Of a DNA stretch of 64,000 nucleotides, positions 44,808 to 57,007 are shown piece after piece. Both the position numbers and the translations under genes were made by a program. Origin of the DNA: Nitrosopumilus zosterae (GTDB taxonomy: Archaea; Thermoproteota; Nitrososphaeria; Nitrososphaerales; Nitrosopumilaceae). Location of the stretch: assembly GCF_025998175.1 (NCBI RefSeq), contig NZ_AP026695.1:1242760-1306759 (forward strand). The letters are read 5' to 3'. How positions within the stretch are numbered: the stretch's first letter is position 1; each line of letters starts with the position of its first letter. The notes under the pieces were generated by a model. That model was not told where the DNA came from. It did not search any database and was given only the letters and a program-made list of their open reading frames with translations.

Positions 44808-46313
44808 TTAATCAAACAAGGATTCTGGTTGGTATCCACTTGGTTTTGATGTTGAAATAGATTGAGGAATCTTCATGATGCCTTCTTTTATTAAGAATTG
44901 AATTCCTTGTACAAAGGAATTGTCATCTATGGAACCGTCAGCCCACCAACCTGCATTGTTCTTTACCCATGATGGAATGTTATTTGCGCTTCCACCAGAG
45001 CCTTGAACTGTGGGAGGAATCTTCATGATGCCTTCTTTTATTAAGAATTGAATTCCTTGTACAAAGGAATTGTCATCTATGGAACCGTCAGCCCACCAAC
45101 CTGCATTGTTCTTAATCCAATCAGGAATTTTTTGTACTGGAATTGTACCATCAGCTGCAAATATTGGAACTTCGATTTCTAAATAGTCAGCTGCACCAGA
45201 GGGAGCAATTCCTTCAGGAGATAATCCATAAATCCAAATAACATAACGAGCAACGCCAGGATCTTCTTTTACTTTCATGCTAATAGTGTGTTGGCCTGAT
45301 GGAGAATAGAGAAACTTTCTGCCTTCTTCTTGTGCAATTGATCTTAGAGGTTTCAAATTTTCATCGACAGTTAGAAAGTCAAACTGAACTTGGTTCAAGT
45401 ATTCAGTATCATCATATTTGTTAATGAAACTAATTAGCCAATCCATTTCACAACCCACTACTGGTTCTTCAGGACCATAGAAGATATGCACCTGATAATC
45501 AAAGTTCTTTGTAGGTTTTTTTATGCCAACTGTCTTTTCAAAATCAATTTCACATCCTGCTGCTTCAAGCTCATCCAAAGTTGATACAATGCCTTCAAAA
45601 GGACTAGTTTGCACATTTTCTTTATACTCTAACAATGAGAATTCGTATTCTGTAGGTGGAATTCCTTCAGACACATGTGTGTAAGTTTTAGCTTTTATTG
45701 GAAATGGAAAATCATCTACAATCCATACTTTGCTTCCAACTCCCCCGGTCTTCCAATACATTTGAACAGTTTCCCATGTGCCTGCTGGAACAGTAATTGT
45801 TTCAATTGCTTTTGGAAGTACTTGCTCGCCTCCAATGTTTCCAATCTTACCCCATGATGTTGCTTTGAATTCTTTTGGACCTTTTCCGCCAGAACTGGAA
45901 TCAGATGTTGCAAATGCAGAAAGCCATACTACCGAAGACTTGAAAGCACCTCTGTAAACGCCTAATTCAGCACTGCCTCCTGTAGGTTCTGGCGCAATTT
46001 TTCCTAATTCCATTTCACCTACAATTCGTTTGTTGCCATCATAAACTACAACTTCAGCTAACCATTTGGTTTCGCTTCCGACTTGTTTGTCACCTTTTAT
46101 CCACAGATCCATTTCAAATTTAGCACATTCTTTGTAGTCTACATGACACATCAAATATGAAAAAAAGTCTCCTTTCTTGAGACCTTCACCTGCATACCAG
46201 GATCCTTCTTTATCCACACCACCAGATTGGAATTGTGCAAATGCAGACGGAACAGATATTGAACCTAACAATAAAGCGGCAAATATAGGAATAATTAACA
46301 ACAAGCCTTTCAA
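44808..46313 (-). CDS. Secreted protein with two C-terminal WIKNNAGWWADG repeats
   Basis: 501 aa with signal peptide (cleavage near AFA-QF). A large N-terminal domain of about 370 residues (GVDKEGSWYAGEGLKKGDFFSYLMC..., WIVDDFPFPIKAKTYTHVSEGIPP) is shared with the protein at 51.8 kb. Then come two 50-residue-period copies of 'IPDWIKNNAGWWADGSIDD...QGIQFLIKEGIMKIP'. One copy of the same module ends PstS. The repeats are encoded by a 100-bp identical DNA segment. Probably surface-associated; enzymatic role unknown. Confidence 0.8.
   Translation of the reverse strand: MKGLLLIIPIFAALLLGSISVPSAFAQFQSGGVDKEGSWYAGEGLKKGDFFSYLMCHVDYKECAKFEMDLWIKGDKQVGSETKWLAEVVVYDGNKRIVGEMELGKIAPEPTGGSAELGVYRGAFKSSVVWLSAFATSDSSSGGKGPKEFKATSWGKIGNIGGEQVLPKAIETITVPAGTWETVQMYWKTGGVGSKVWIVDDFPFPIKAKTYTHVSEGIPPTEYEFSLLEYKENVQTSPFEGIVSTLDELEAAGCEIDFEKTVGIKKPTKNFDYQVHIFYGPEEPVVGCEMDWLISFINKYDDTEYLNQVQFDFLTVDENLKPLRSIAQEEGRKFLYSPSGQHTISMKVKEDPGVARYVIWIYGLSPEGIAPSGAADYLEIEVPIFAADGTIPVQKIPDWIKNNAGWWADGSIDDNSFVQGIQFLIKEGIMKIPPTVQGSGGSANNIPSWVKNNAGWWADGSIDDNSFVQGIQFLIKEGIMKIPQSISTSKPSGYQPESLFD
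44864..45113. repeat. 100-bp direct repeat, 150-bp period
   Basis: 44864-44963 is identical to 45014-45113, including silent positions, inside the C-terminal coding region of the secreted gene. Confidence 0.95.
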
Positions 46314-51772: not shown

Positions 51773-53239
51773 CTAAGTGATTTTTATGATATTTTCTTTG
51801 ATCAGAAACTGAATTCCCTGAATGAAGGAATCATCACCTATCTGTCCTGCTGCCCACCATCCTGCATTGTTTTTAATCCATGATGGGATTTCATTTGAGA
51901 CTGAACTGGAGTCTTGCGTATCTGAAGGAATCTTCATGATATTTTCTTTGATCAGAAACTGAATTCCCTGAATGAAGGAATCATCACCTATCTGTCCTGC
52001 TGCCCACCATCCTGCATTGTTTTTAATCCATGATGGGATTTCAGGGTATGACATATCATTGTCTAATTCTCTGAGAAGGAGATTCTCTGCAATTTCAATC
52101 TCAACTATTACATATCCACCCAATTCTGGATTTGGTACTTCGTATTCGGAACCCGTCCCATGAACAAATATTGCATATTTAACAATCCCTGCTTTTTCTT
52201 CTACTGGTAAAAGAATGTGAACTTGTCCAAACCCGTTAAACAAGTCTGCACGTCCAATGTCCTGAGCATATGAACGGATCTTGTTTCCGGCATCATCGAC
52301 CACCCAAATATCATAATGGACTTGATCAATGAATTCAACCTCATTGTACTTGTTCATGAAATTTATTTTCCAATCAATGCTACATCCTTCAATTGGGACT
52401 TCTGGAGAATAATTGTACTGGATTAACATGGAGAATGTGTTAGTAGACTCACGGCCACTGACATAATTATGGAACTCAGTAGGACACTCCAACAGTTTCT
52501 CTTTTGGGATTGTTGATTTTACATCCTTGAAAGGATCATCGGTGATGTTTTCTTTGTAATCTAGCAAAGTGTATTGGTACATTATAGGTGCAATACCTGT
52601 CGTAACCCATGCATATGTCAGTGCTTTAACAGGAAAAGGAAAATCATCTAGAATCCAGATCTCATTATTGTTTCCGCTATACCAGCCAACAACTACCGTG
52701 TCAGCAGTTCCGGCAGGAGTGTTTATTGTTTCTGTTCTTTTTGGAATTAACTGAGCACCACCTATTGCACCAATTTTTCCCCATGCTGCATCGCTGAATT
52801 TTTGCGGGCCATGTATTCTATCATCTTCATTTGCAGTTGCAAATGCAGACAGCCAAGCCAGTGAAGACTTGAATCCAATCGCATAGTCAAAAAGATCATC
52901 ATCAAACAGTACTGGCTCAGGAGCAGTCTTACCAAGTCCCATAGATCCTTGAATTATTTTATTGCCATCAATTACTACAACTTTGGTATCCCACAAGGAC
53001 TCGCTTTCATTTTGTATTTCACCTTTGATCCACATTTTCAGTTTAATAGGTGCGCAATCGTTGAGATCTATTTCGCACAAAGAATATTCAAAATAATCTC
53101 CTACTTTAAGACCTTCACCCAAATACCATGTACCCTCAACATCCACGCCACCTGCAGTTTGAACACCTTGCCCATAAGAAATATTTGAAAACCCAACTCC
53201 AAGTAAAATAGTTAGAAGACCAATTACTAGTATGTTCAT
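51773..53239 (-). CDS. Secreted protein with two C-terminal WIKNNAGWWAAG repeats (paralog of 44.8 kb gene)
   Basis: 488 aa, signal peptide (cleavage near SYG-QG). GVDVEGTWYLGEGLKVGDYFEYSLC and the WILDDFPFPVKALTYAWVTTGIAP block match the 44.8-kb protein along the whole length. The end has two copies of 'IPSWIKNNAGWWAAGQIGDD...IQGIQFLIKENI'. The repeats are identical to each other at DNA level but differ from those of the paralog. Predicted surface protein, function unknown. Confidence 0.8.
   Translation of the reverse strand: MNILVIGLLTILLGVGFSNISYGQGVQTAGGVDVEGTWYLGEGLKVGDYFEYSLCEIDLNDCAPIKLKMWIKGEIQNESESLWDTKVVVIDGNKIIQGSMGLGKTAPEPVLFDDDLFDYAIGFKSSLAWLSAFATANEDDRIHGPQKFSDAAWGKIGAIGGAQLIPKRTETINTPAGTADTVVVGWYSGNNNEIWILDDFPFPVKALTYAWVTTGIAPIMYQYTLLDYKENITDDPFKDVKSTIPKEKLLECPTEFHNYVSGRESTNTFSMLIQYNYSPEVPIEGCSIDWKINFMNKYNEVEFIDQVHYDIWVVDDAGNKIRSYAQDIGRADLFNGFGQVHILLPVEEKAGIVKYAIFVHGTGSEYEVPNPELGGYVIVEIEIAENLLLRELDNDMSYPEIPSWIKNNAGWWAAGQIGDDSFIQGIQFLIKENIMKIPSDTQDSSSVSNEIPSWIKNNAGWWAAGQIGDDSFIQGIQFLIKENIIKIT
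51786..52043. repeat. 108-bp direct repeat, 150-bp period
   Basis: 51786-51893 equals 51936-52043 base for base, inside the C-terminal coding region. Confidence 0.95.
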
Positions 53240-53598: not shown

Positions 53599-53898
53599 TT
53601 AATTTACTTTATCAATTACCTTGTCATAAATTTTGACATTCTTTCCATCAAGATCATCCACATGATCAAGATCATCTAATTGTATTCCTGATGTAAATGC
53701 AGGGTTTCCATCACCGGTAAAGAGACTAAACAATGCGAAAGAAATAGCAACGGCAAAAACAAAACCAAAAATCAATCCGTACGGAAAAGGCATGACTGTT
53801 TGAATCAAAAAGAAAACTACTATTGCCAAATCACTCCAAGTAAGATAGATCTCATTTTCTTTTTCTCTGTATTTTTCTATAAATGAAGACAATCCCAT
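53599..53898 (-). CDS. Two-helix membrane protein of the AmoB-like operon
   Basis: About 99 aa. Cytosolic charged start (FIEKYREKENEIYL), a pair of hydrophobic helices (LAIVVFFLIQTVMPFPYGLIFGFVFAVAISFALFS region) and an acidic tail with LDDLDHVDDLDGKNV. It overlaps the AmoB-like gene by about 47 bases (ATG 53898; 53910 also possible), unusually long. Not recognised; could be an accessory subunit. Confidence 0.6.
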   Translation of the reverse strand: MGLSSFIEKYREKENEIYLTWSDLAIVVFFLIQTVMPFPYGLIFGFVFAVAISFALFSLFTGDGNPAFTSGIQLDDLDHVDDLDGKNVKIYDKVIDKVN

Positions 53899-54505
53899 AA
53901 ATAAGACCAATCGTAATCAAAACAAAACCTATCGTATAAGGAATGTAAAATTCAAACAATTCTCCGTCTGTGATGTCTTGCGAGCCTTGTACAACTATTG
54001 TCTCGCCTGGTCCAATGTATCTAAAAGACGGAATGTCTGCATCAGGATCTGTATGAACGTGATATGTCCCGCCTTTTAATGGAGTTATTTCTATTGAATA
54101 GAAAATTATCTCATCTCCTTTCAGCAGATATGAATCAGGTGTAGGCTGTATATCCATGTACCAATGGTTTTGATTGGGAAAAACATGAATTGATTCTGCA
54201 CATGTGTCTTTGGCAAGACACGAGAAGTTAGATTTTAAGAGATTCACAAGCCACGGGTCATTGTTTGTATAATCAAATCTAATGTTCATATTTCCTGTAA
54301 AATCCCTTTCAACTAGGGATACAATTGTGCCATTTAGAATGAAAGATTCTCCTACAGATACTGTTGTTTTTGAATACATATCATCCTCAACTCTATAGAA
54401 TCCTGAGTTAAATCTAGGACCGACTCCGTGTCCATAAACTTCCATCACTGTAGATGTCACACATGTTATAGAAAGTATAGTAATTATCAAAAGTCTAGTT
54501 TTCAT
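53852..54505 (-). CDS. AmoB/PmoB-like membrane-anchored cupredoxin-type protein
   Basis: 217 aa. A signal peptide ends at about residue 25 (EVYG-HG), leaving His26 as mature N-terminus. HGVGPRFNSGFYRVEDD, VGESFILNGTIVSLVERDF, GGTYHVHTD and RYIGPGETIVVQG line up with archaeal AmoB and with the PmoB block 'DWHVHT...IGPG.WI.VEG'. His26 and H149/H151 match the PmoB copper ligands H33, H137 and H139. A 30-residue insert with C96 and C102 is extra. One C-terminal helix (IPYTIGFVLITIGLIYGIVF) follows with a basic tail. No amoA/amoC nearby, so this is a paralog, not the canonical gene. Confidence 0.78.
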   Translation of the reverse strand: MKTRLLIITILSITCVTSTVMEVYGHGVGPRFNSGFYRVEDDMYSKTTVSVGESFILNGTIVSLVERDFTGNMNIRFDYTNNDPWLVNLLKSNFSCLAKDTCAESIHVFPNQNHWYMDIQPTPDSYLLKGDEIIFYSIEITPLKGGTYHVHTDPDADIPSFRYIGPGETIVVQGSQDITDGELFEFYIPYTIGFVLITIGLIYGIVFIYRKIQRKRK

Positions 54506-54831
54506 TTTCTAATCCTATCTCGTTGATATATCAACAACACTACAAATACAGGCAATATCATGTGCCAGAAGATAAAACCGCTATTGTCTTTCAGATTATC
54601 ATATACGGTAGGATGGTAAATTTCTCCAGTTCCCGACCAAGAGCCAATTCCATTTCCAGTATCCCAGTCACTAGTTGTGATATGGATACTAGTATCCTGA
54701 AACCAGAACATGAAACAATTTGGTCCATCATCATACAGAAGCATACAAGGATGTGTTATTCCCCCGTGAAATAAAATGTAGATGATTGTACTTGTTGCAA
54801 TAATTATAGAAACTTTGTATCTGGTTTTCAT
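54502..54831 (-). CDS. Membrane protein coupled to the AmoB-like gene
   Basis: 109 aa: N-terminal helix (VSIIIATSTIIYILF), an extracellular loop of about 60 residues with two Cys (HPCMLLYDDGPNCFMF), His and several Trp (SIHITTSDWDT), and a C-terminal helix (FWHMILPVFVVLLIY). The stop overlaps the AmoB-like start by 4 bases. The outward loop next to a copper-site protein suggests a partner subunit; no family recognised. Confidence 0.62.
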   Translation of the reverse strand: MKTRYKVSIIIATSTIIYILFHGGITHPCMLLYDDGPNCFMFWFQDTSIHITTSDWDTGNGIGSWSGTGEIYHPTVYDNLKDNSGFIFWHMILPVFVVLLIYQRDRIRK

Positions 54832-54834
54832 TTT

Positions 54835-55068
54835 TTACTCCACAGAAATGTATTCTATCTTCGCACCGCAAAAAGGACAATAATCAATTGGGGTAAGAAT
54901 ATCTTTTTCTACAATACAGAATTTCCCAATTTTGCTACTCCAAGATTTTACAACTGAAACGTATTTCTTTAATTTTTCACAGCAAAAATCCAATTCATCT
55001 TCATTTTTAAATTCAGTAAAAGAGACATATTCAAAAGCCTGAATCTCTTTTCTGACATATACTTGCAT
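54835..55068 (-). CDS. 77-aa zinc-ribbon protein heading the AmoB-like operon
   Basis: The C-terminus YCPFCGAKIEYI is a zinc knuckle; FCCEKLKKYV offers the other Cys pair. The N-terminus (VYVRKEIQAFEYVSFTEFKNEDEL) is beta-like. It ends 3 bases before the membrane gene, so it is likely cotranscribed. Role unknown. Confidence 0.6.
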   Translation of the reverse strand: MQVYVRKEIQAFEYVSFTEFKNEDELDFCCEKLKKYVSVVKSWSSKIGKFCIVEKDILTPIDYCPFCGAKIEYISVE

Positions 55069-55116
55069 TATTCAAACTAAAATTAAGAGATTCATAAAGT
55101 ATTCTAATCTTTTGTA

Positions 55117-55167
55117 AATAGATGGTGTGAGGTAAACGGTCTGGGAATAGCCTCCAACCTATCTATT
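55117..55167. ncRNA. Imperfect hairpin upstream of the AmoB-like operon
   Basis: AATAGAT pairs with ATCTATT; GG/CC and GAGG/CCTC continue the stem with small internal loops, closing an 18-base loop. Sits about 50 bases upstream of the operon's first start. It could be a structured leader, a terminator of the opposite strand, or a regulator site. No family recognised. Confidence 0.35.
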
Positions 55168-55249
55168 GTGATTTGTATACTTCAAATTATAATAAAAGCA
55201 GCACGAATGAATCATTCATGCAAATTCTCAGCATCGCCTAAATACTATT

Positions 55250-56638
55250 TTACAAATCAAATTCATAGTATTCCCATTTGTAAGCATTCTGATTTCTTGT
55301 TCTACTTGGGTTGTTTTTAGCGCTGGTCAAAGTAGGATCACCATATACCCGTCCCACAACTAATTTTTTACCGTCAGTTCTAACATGAACAATCCCGTCA
55401 ATTGCTCTTTCATAAAGAGAGTATTCTCTTTTTCTCTTTTTTACTTCCTCAATATCTTCAGAAGATACTGGATGGTATGTCCTGAGAATTTCTGTGGCAA
55501 AAATTATTGGACGTTTAATGGCCTGACTAGAATATTTACCTAAAATTCCCAATAATTCTGCTCTAGGATGAGCATGATCAGGCACATCTCCTGATGATAC
55601 TATGGATATCCAAGGTCTTACACGTTCTAAGAATTCAGTTGTAACATCTTGACTGCCATGATGATTTGCTTTGAAGACATGGGATTCTAATGGATAGTCT
55701 TTATGAAATTTTATGAATTCTTTCTCGTATTTTGTATTCATATCTCCACACAAGAGAATTTTACATTTACCATACTTTGCCATAAGTGACACTGAATTCC
55801 CATTTCGCATTTTATCTGCAGTTCCAGATGCAAGGTATTCTACTCTGTCATTGTGACTAATGTTTATTGGTCCAAGTATCTCGATTTCTAGTGGATCATT
55901 TGGCAGTTTTTTAATTACAGATGTGTGATCTAAATGCTCTATTTTGATATCTCTGTTCTTTTTCTTTGCTTTTGTTAATGCTGTAAATAATTTCTGATAA
56001 TCACCTGAAATCTTTGAGAAATCTAATTTTGTAATGTCATCAAAAATTTCTACTAACCGTCGGGGGTTTTTACCCATAATTTTCCCATCTGATGGTTTTC
56101 CACGAAAACGAGAAATTCCATTGTGATAAAATTTCTTTATTTTGATTTTTTGATCCCCTACAATTGGAACAAGACCCATGGCATGATCTCTATCTGCATG
56201 ACTCATGATGACTGCATCAAAGTCAATCTGGTTTCCTTCCAAATTGAACTTCCATTTTAAGAACTCATGAGCTAATTCCCCTTCATCATGAGTTGGTCCG
56301 CCATCAATTAGGTATCTGTTGTCTTGTGGTGTTTGAATTAAAATGGCATCACCCTGACCTACATCCAAGAAATAGATCTCCAGAGTCCTTTCAGTTCCAA
56401 TTGAATCTGTAGGTATCCAACCTACTCCACCCCTAAATGCAACATAACTTTGACCTTCAGCGGTAAGAGGAACTCCGTTTTTGTCAGATAGTGGCTTTAC
56501 CCACTCTCCAAATAGGAGTCTGGCTACCACTGTTCTTTTTGCTGGAAGGCCAGATTTGTTTTGTTTATAGTACTTTTCAGTATAATTGTAGGCTACAGTC
56601 AATGACTGATTTGTGAACATCCAGTCTTTTTTACTCAT
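55250..56638 (-). CDS. ComEC-like metallo-beta-lactamase-fold hydrolase
   Basis: 462 aa, no membrane segments. An N-terminal roughly 90-residue region (SH3-like, GWIPTDSIGTERTL) precedes the MBL domain: IYFLDVGQGDAILIQTP, LIDGGPTHDEGE, metal motif SHADRDHAMGL, LLCGDMN, KANHHGSQD and SGDVPDHAHPRAE. This is the ComEC/Rec2 nuclease-like branch of the MBL fold. Stand-alone soluble forms occur in defence-type loci and DNA uptake; a nuclease role is plausible. Monocistronic. Confidence 0.85.
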   Translation of the reverse strand: MSKKDWMFTNQSLTVAYNYTEKYYKQNKSGLPAKRTVVARLLFGEWVKPLSDKNGVPLTAEGQSYVAFRGGVGWIPTDSIGTERTLEIYFLDVGQGDAILIQTPQDNRYLIDGGPTHDEGELAHEFLKWKFNLEGNQIDFDAVIMSHADRDHAMGLVPIVGDQKIKIKKFYHNGISRFRGKPSDGKIMGKNPRRLVEIFDDITKLDFSKISGDYQKLFTALTKAKKKNRDIKIEHLDHTSVIKKLPNDPLEIEILGPINISHNDRVEYLASGTADKMRNGNSVSLMAKYGKCKILLCGDMNTKYEKEFIKFHKDYPLESHVFKANHHGSQDVTTEFLERVRPWISIVSSGDVPDHAHPRAELLGILGKYSSQAIKRPIIFATEILRTYHPVSSEDIEEVKKRKREYSLYERAIDGIVHVRTDGKKLVVGRVYGDPTLTSAKNNPSRTRNQNAYKWEYYEFDL

Positions 56639-57007
56639 ATTATATGTCCATCATACTTGTTGATAAATTGTTTTTAATATCAGAAACCTTTTTCGCAACA
56701 TTGTATTTTAGGATAATGTGACTCCAGATAAATCAACAAAATTGCAAAATACTTCATACTGCATGAATTTTGATTATCAATTATTGTAAAGGGCTTCCAA
56801 CCTATTGCTAGTAAGATTTATGGCATTTCTTTTGATTCGGACATATTCACAGCATTACACCTTGGGAGGATAGTTAGGTGCTCTGAGTTTACCGCCAAAA
56901 GGATTGGCAGTTGGAGGTTTGAAGATCGGAGGTATTTTATTCCCATTCGTATATTCTGCGATATTTATTAAAAATGGTTTTAATACTTCAAGAAAATCTC
57001 AGCAGGT
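56639..57007. other. 369-bp intergenic with possible gene relic
   Basis: A plus-strand open stretch (about 56880-57050) encodes LSLPPKGLAVGGLKIGGILF and a hydrophobic run without a start codon, possibly a relic. The 3' end carries the promoter/leader of the CBS-TrkH gene, including TTTATTAAAAAT near 56973-56984. I see no RNA gene. Confidence 0.4.

Follow-up and report, generated by a model that had tools for sequence, protein, structure and literature searches.

An AmoB-like cupredoxin protein encoded in an array of exported-protein genes of Nitrosopumilus zosterae, distant from the canonical amo locus

Archaeal AmoB, whose cupredoxin domain is represented by the Nitrosocaldus structure 4o65, carries a signal peptide followed by an N-terminal His, a RIEDExF strand, an HxH pair, a GPGxTxxVxG strand and one C-terminal transmembrane (TM) helix. 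Bacterial PmoB and AmoB (pMMO 1yew, AMO 9cl6) combine an N-terminal cupredoxin domain, copper ligands and a first TM helix with a second TM helix and a C-terminal cupredoxin domain. Moreover, the small membrane proteins AmoX, AmoY and AmoZ are associated with AMO (Hodgskiss et al. 2023, PMC10030591), and the N-terminal part of AmoZ was proposed to contact AmoB (PMC10030591). The archaeal AMO counts among the ocean's most abundant enzymes, and its assembly, copper loading and regulation are still under question.

The stretch of N. zosterae DNA analysed here (64,000 nucleotides of NZ_AP026695.1, positions 1,242,760 to 1,306,759; hereafter the window) encodes a 217-aa protein in which all these archaeal AmoB features are found. 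Unlike archaeal AmoB, to which it is ~30% identical, this protein has a Cys-pair insert, a GELFEFYIPY neck before the helix and a basic RKRK tail, is encoded away from amoA and amoC, and falls outside the canonical group in a tree. It shares with the bacterial proteins the N-terminal cupredoxin domain, the copper ligands and the first TM helix, but lacks their second TM helix and C-terminal cupredoxin domain. Its genetic setting, compared by junction and gene content, is like that of integron gene-cassette arrays in that unrelated genes stand in tandem with a common junction sequence between them and vary among strains. In contrast to integron arrays, the genes' own stop/start region serves as the junction, and the arrays trail a head gene and look polycistronic.

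The open reading frames described in the initial annotation of positions 55068 to 53599 (the 77-aa CxxC protein and those of 109, 217 and 99 aa) were all recovered on the minus strand by ORF calling, and the region comprised the following features:

55093 to 55119, minus strand: conserved promoter-like stretch ATTTACAAAAGATTAGAATACTTTATG, 5′ of the head gene, with a putative promoter role
54835 to 55068, minus strand: 77-aa zinc-ribbon-like head gene, with CxxC near its C terminus
54502 to 54831, minus strand: array gene of a 109-aa two-helix membrane protein, starting with MKTRYKV and ending with RDRIRK and the stop
54479 to 54509, minus strand: array junction and gene start, the AGAAAATGAAAACTAGACTTTTGATAATTACT region (0 matches in 100 shuffles)
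53852 to 54505, minus strand: 217-aa AmoB-like protein, with signal peptide, cupredoxin domain, one C-terminal TM helix and RKRK tail
54428 to 54430, minus strand: codon of His26, predicted N-terminal copper ligand of the mature protein
54200 to 54220, minus strand: codons Cys96 to Cys102, a possible disulfide in the insert missing from canonical AmoB
54053 to 54061, minus strand: codons of His149-Val150-His151, predicted copper ligands (HxH)
53876 to 53956, minus strand: C-terminal TM helix (residues 180-216, block pLDDT 78-93; orthologue hydropathy)
53820 to 53855, minus strand: possible vestige of a following array start, whose ATG overlaps the AmoB-like stop and which reads MRSILLGVIWQ and then a stop, as if decayed
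53599 to 53898, minus strand: 99-aa ORF with two hydrophobic stretches, beginning inside the AmoB-like gene and overlapping its 3′ end; a doubtful gene

The stop of the 109-aa gene and the start of the AmoB-like gene overlap by 4 nt (ATGA). The overlapping two-helix protein of 99 aa exists as an ORF, and its reality as a gene is the weakest part of the earlier description, no relative having been found in 0.99 Mb of loci. Upstream, positions 54820-55265 were 85.7% identical at the DNA level to a locus of another genome (L107 of G068), and the ATTTACAAAAGATTAGAATACTTTATG stretch had shorter matches in other array loci. Taken together, the operon is a short array composed of the head gene, the 109-aa gene, the AmoB-like gene and an apparently decayed tail. 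Canonical AmoX, AmoY and AmoZ gave no match to the 109-, 99- and 77-aa proteins, and the neighbours were rejected as candidates for these subunits. Adjoining the array is a 462-aa metallo-beta-lactamase-fold protein (55250-56638, minus strand) that is related to the ComEC C-terminal region and whose PHROG match bears a tail-protein annotation. Two exported proteins, also encoded on the minus strand (51773-53239, 488 aa; 44808-46313, 501 aa), share modules with array-region proteins, and the C-terminal end of the former is made of two copies of the IPSWIKNNAGWWA module.

The identity of the 217-aa protein as a genuine AmoB homologue is well supported, and its likeness to AmoB, noted initially from shared motifs, proved to exceed chance. 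In a phmmer search of the PDB, archaeal AmoB (4o65) came first (E 1.6e-4), with His26 opposite residue 1 of the solved chain and HVHT opposite HAHT, and a profile built from five orthologues reached the 4o65 chain at E 6.6e-6. Canonical AmoB matched the 217-aa protein at E 3e-22 within a small ORF set. No Pfam or NCBIfam model was passed, PF04744 included, a result of little weight given that the canonical AmoB of this cell clears PF04744 by a small margin (24.8 vs 22.7 bits) and fails the NCBIfam bacterial AmoB model. Sub-threshold matches to PF12420 and other profiles were taken as chance, and no rival family outscored AmoB/PmoB in the Pfam, NCBIfam and PDB searches.

Similarly, an AlphaFold2 model of the single chain, computed from a 12-row alignment (pLDDT 76, pTM 0.69; values over 83 for the bulk of the beta core and under 50 for residues 11-31), presented the AmoB-type cupredoxin fold. 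Foldseek placed 4o65 first with this model (E 3.9e-9), followed by pMMO PmoB, and in VIA-align 4o65 (Z 12.3, rmsd 3.4, 120 aligned residues) was followed at ranks 2-8 by PmoB/AmoB chains; no CopC chain was present among the PDB and fold matches listed. The gene is under purifying selection, with whole-gene pairwise dN/dS of 0.14-0.22, rough ratios given that dS approached or exceeded 1 for the majority of pairs. A viral origin was also considered and rejected, the AmoB-like protein having no PHROG match and no relative in the viral_contigs scan.

The N. zosterae genome is one contig of 1,775,052 bases. Near 0.25 Mb it carries amoA, amoX, amoC, amoB and candidate amoY and amoZ genes, these last two named here after the gene order in Hodgskiss et al. 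(2023; PMC10030591), and the AmoB-like gene is found at 1.297 Mb, ~1 Mb from this canonical locus. The 217-aa protein is not the AmoB of this cell. No second AmoA and only one close AmoC were found in the genome, which rules out a second complete AMO and makes an independent oxidase unlikely. For the same reason, the earlier suggestion of a new copper complex with another substrate found no support, and any AMO-like complex that included the 217-aa protein must borrow the canonical membrane subunits.

One way of borrowing them would be the replacement of AmoB by its paralogue, so that the resulting AMO would differ in substrate or affinity. The fold, ligands and anchor of the 217-aa protein are like those of AmoB, and G119, the one genome with three copies, carries a second amoC as well, but neither a second AmoA nor a further close AmoC accompanies the gene in the window genome and its product diverges strongly outside the core. 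Besides, the PmoB copper site of pMMO is not generally regarded as the catalytic one, which counts against an alternative monooxygenase subunit, a role considered quite improbable.

In the AmoB tree, where some end branches are long, the paralogue group was split from the canonical AmoB of Nitrosopumilaceae, of family f3 and of Nitrosocaldus by a 100/100 branch (200/200 bootstraps). Family f3 was taken, from kinship, as Nitrososphaeraceae. This topology places the 217-aa protein in an old paralogue group reaching into another family. Its own tree group and conserved ligands bear out the initial view of an AmoB/PmoB-type cupredoxin protein set apart from canonical AmoB. A recent duplication of the cell's own amoB is ruled out for this protein by the tree, and the copies that do fit such an event are those of class IV, found in G143, G229 and G046.

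The close form was restricted, among 200 family and 300 class genomes, to the window genome (G000), an uncultured Nitrosopumilus with three copies (G119, OX638319.1) and a Nitrosarchaeum MAG (G105), a patchy distribution of three genomes in the 300-genome class sample. A genus search added one more close relative in G229, a genome with 8% contamination. This patchiness shows that the AmoB-like gene is dispensable for ammonia oxidation. More distant paralogues were found in G143, G035, G018, G229 and three f3 genomes, and the f3 forms (L136, L137 and L138) consist of an AmoB domain followed by several extra TM helices in open frames of 330-389 aa. Two of these three f3 genomes consist of one contig each, 2.53 and 2.95 Mb in length.

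The motifs quoted in the initial annotation were all located in the protein: His26 straight after the signal peptide, HVHT (His149/His151), IGPGETIVVQG and Cys96/Cys102. By sequence, the N-terminal His plus HxH copper-ligand set of CuMMO subunit B is therein complete, and His26, His149 and His151 were invariant across an alignment of five close orthologues, in which the four sequences besides the window protein share 59-70% identity with it. The Cys pair was confirmed as missing from canonical AmoB, while its supposed peculiarity to the 217-aa protein was not upheld, both residues being invariant in the same five sequences. It is probable that the 217-aa protein binds copper; the His26 region corresponds to the low-confidence stretch of the model.

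This ligand set is central to the main rival explanation, that of a copper chaperone or buffer, in which the anchored domain would bind copper at His26, His149 and His151 and pass it to AMO or to other copper enzymes outside the complex. The invariance of the ligands in the close form is consistent with such a function, as is the fusion of the Nitrososphaeraceae forms to several further TM helices, an arrangement recalling the CopC/CopD fusions considered in relation to copper limitation in N. viennensis (PMC7785015). However, class II paralogues (G143a, G229 and G018a) have lost the copper ligands and are nevertheless retained as open genes, the gene neighbours are unrelated exported proteins with no recognisable copper genes among them, and the ligand set could be a structural inheritance. 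Since some related copies dispensed with the ligands, copper cannot be the whole story. The chaperone explanation is regarded as unlikely.

The locus had been described as a separate small membrane operon. Its zinc-ribbon lead gene was confirmed, but a dedicated conserved operon was not supported, the neighbours being interchangeable and the gene order not being kept across relatives, in which the gene itself is patchy. Instead, the operon is one short example of a larger and apparently undescribed arrangement in Nitrosopumilus and Nitrosarchaeum, in which a zinc-ribbon head gene is followed by genes of unrelated exported or membrane proteins with near-identical stop-and-start DNA, GAAAATGAARACTAGRCTTTTGATAATT. 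In fact, the AmoB-like copies of G119, G105 and G143 were located in or beside tandem arrays of unrelated exported or membrane proteins, many of which start with nearly this DNA. The AmoB paralogue and the arrays with a common junction are both apparently new against the open-licence PMC literature, in which nothing on point was found on either AmoB paralogues or such exported-gene arrays.

With up to three mismatches allowed, GAAAATGAARACTAGRCTTTTGATAATT was detected in 35 of the 200 family genomes, with up to 17 occurrences per genome, and the reversed pattern in 0. The 24-nt start motif occurred 17 times in the window genome (0 for reversed controls); the only perfect copy was that of the AmoB-like gene, the 16 others presenting 1-3 mismatches. 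Among 97 junctions, 40 had upstream genes with WRKRK-stop ends and a 4-nt overlap, and 27 had ENEN-stop ends and an 11-nt overlap. Codon choice at the start departed strongly from that further along in these genes (ACT 92 vs 36%, TTG 82 vs 27%, ATA 85 vs 29%), a contrast inflated by the fact that junction loci were partly picked by DNA matches, and this departure indicates that the junction DNA itself is conserved. That the shared start reflects purely a protein-level signal peptide is unlikely, given the codon bias and the ending of upstream genes by junction DNA in two frames (67/97). A junction of ~28 bp was common to the Nitrosopumilus and Nitrosarchaeum arrays at loci L047-L057 and L034-L039. 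The stop/start junction points to a means of shuffling exported genes in archaea.

The other members of the window array also have relatives in different contexts. A protein 71-91% identical to the 77-aa head protein was found in five other Nitrosopumilus genomes (G181, G149, G068, G086 and G030), and in all of these except G149 its gene is followed, after 5-8 nt, by an array-start gene whose content is unrelated. Relatives of the 109-aa protein, with a WDTGxGIGxWTGT-like core, were present in array loci L079, L099, L087, L088 and L121, and also elsewhere in the window genome.

Such mosaic content and the common junction would also be expected if the arrays captured and fused pieces of host genes by recombination at this junction, leaving the AmoB-like gene as a by-product with no AMO-related role, and the apparently decayed start past this gene is in agreement with that possibility. 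On the other hand, a dN/dS well below 1 over deep divergence, the conservation of ligands and Cys pair, and a paralogue group that spans two families and stands apart from the canonical AmoB of both render a by-product highly improbable.

AmoB entered the arrays at least twice, as the ancient paralogue and as recent canonical-type copies, since the array copies of G143 group with canonical AmoB in the tree. These copies are 59-61% identical to canonical AmoB, with an array start and a WRKRK end that replaces the canonical C terminus. Moreover, segments of AMO subunits recurred in other membrane proteins. For example, the AmoA extracytoplasmic loop (~residues 148-183), KYPRPTLPPYMTPIEPQ, recurs in ~127-aa membrane proteins of G119, G134, G189 and G046, in HTH membrane proteins of G181, G229 and G018, and in a propeller-like protein of G181. 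Array or array-region proteins carry it between two TM helices, and two tested AmoA-loop proteins passed the Pfam Archaeal_AmoA cut-off. In the membrane HTH proteins of loci L078, L081 and L082, KYPRPTLPPYMTPIEPQ or a close variant likewise lies between two TM helices, and the one tested passes Archaeal_AmoA. An AmoB strand, RIxDxxFxRQxLQTGE, was found just ahead of the C-terminal TM helix in eight proteins, and both VWA proteins and membrane HTH proteins contained AmoZ segments. Many genomes, the window genome among them, have AmoZ paralogues, with a divergently oriented membrane HTH protein bearing an AmoZ-like segment. AMO segments in other array or array-region proteins keep an AMO-like topology. 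As a control, 5 of 67 other window proteins matched array proteins, a comparison in which the AMO loci had been sought out and the control proteins had not.

AMO interfaces are what these proteins have in common, and docking at AMO is therefore the simplest common reading. It is tentatively proposed, with confidence falling just short of an even balance, that the 217-aa protein acts as an array-borne, membrane-anchored surrogate of AmoB. Its exported cupredoxin domain with the AmoB ligand set, tethered by one C-terminal helix, would dock at the AMO complex, replacing AmoB or sitting beside it, with canonical AmoA and AmoC as partners, and docking would change AMO assembly, copper loading or surface. 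The loss of ligands in class II, the patchy distribution and the low-confidence stretch around the N-terminal His were counted against this proposal. The AmoB paralogue and the AMO segments on regulators and membrane proteins provide concrete candidates that can be tested as partners, assembly factors or sensors of AMO.

A broader and rather doubtful extension of the docking proposal is that in Nitrosopumilus and its relatives the head gene and the arrays, linked by a universal stop/start junction, form a modular, reshuffling system of exported proteins, whose products would be aimed at AMO by grafted AMO interfaces, namely the whole AmoB domain, the AmoB strand, the AmoA extracytoplasmic loop or the AmoZ segment. 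The membrane-tethered HTH regulators carrying an AmoA or AmoZ segment would, in such a system, sense AMO assembly and report to transcription.

The repeated capture of AMO pieces and the variability of the exported-protein arrays could otherwise reflect surface decoys, that is, diverse exported proteins of which some mimic host complexes and distract viruses or attackers binding AMO or the cell surface. Variability is also seen in the near relative G149, where the island is missing beside the same TrkH-like gene and DNA identity is 95% from position 56908 on. Nevertheless, the AmoB-like domain is under purifying selection rather than diversification, HTH regulators with AMO segments do not fit a decoy, and we know of no attacker of AMO, which leaves a variable surface protein very unlikely.

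Additional observations were made at particular loci. The AmoB-like C termini of L035 and L039 (helix plus basic tail) gave sub-threshold matches to Heimdall/Loki-CTERM sorting signals, and the WRKRK tail may have a role in sorting. At L086 (G143:C1:1440000-1448000), the N-terminal segment of AmoZ is closely copied in two proteins, one of the VWA type and the other a membrane protein with a 111-aa frame, next to an AmoZ paralogue. In the window genome, L100 (G000:C1:903000-914000) contains a second AmoZ-like gene (match 908289-908555, plus strand, ~125-aa frame, 48%) and an HTH protein (match 907468-907638, minus strand, 264-aa frame) whose extracytoplasmic part resembles AmoZ; this divergent AmoZ-like/HTH pair recurs in many Nitrosopumilus genomes and, in G119, is found near the second amoC.
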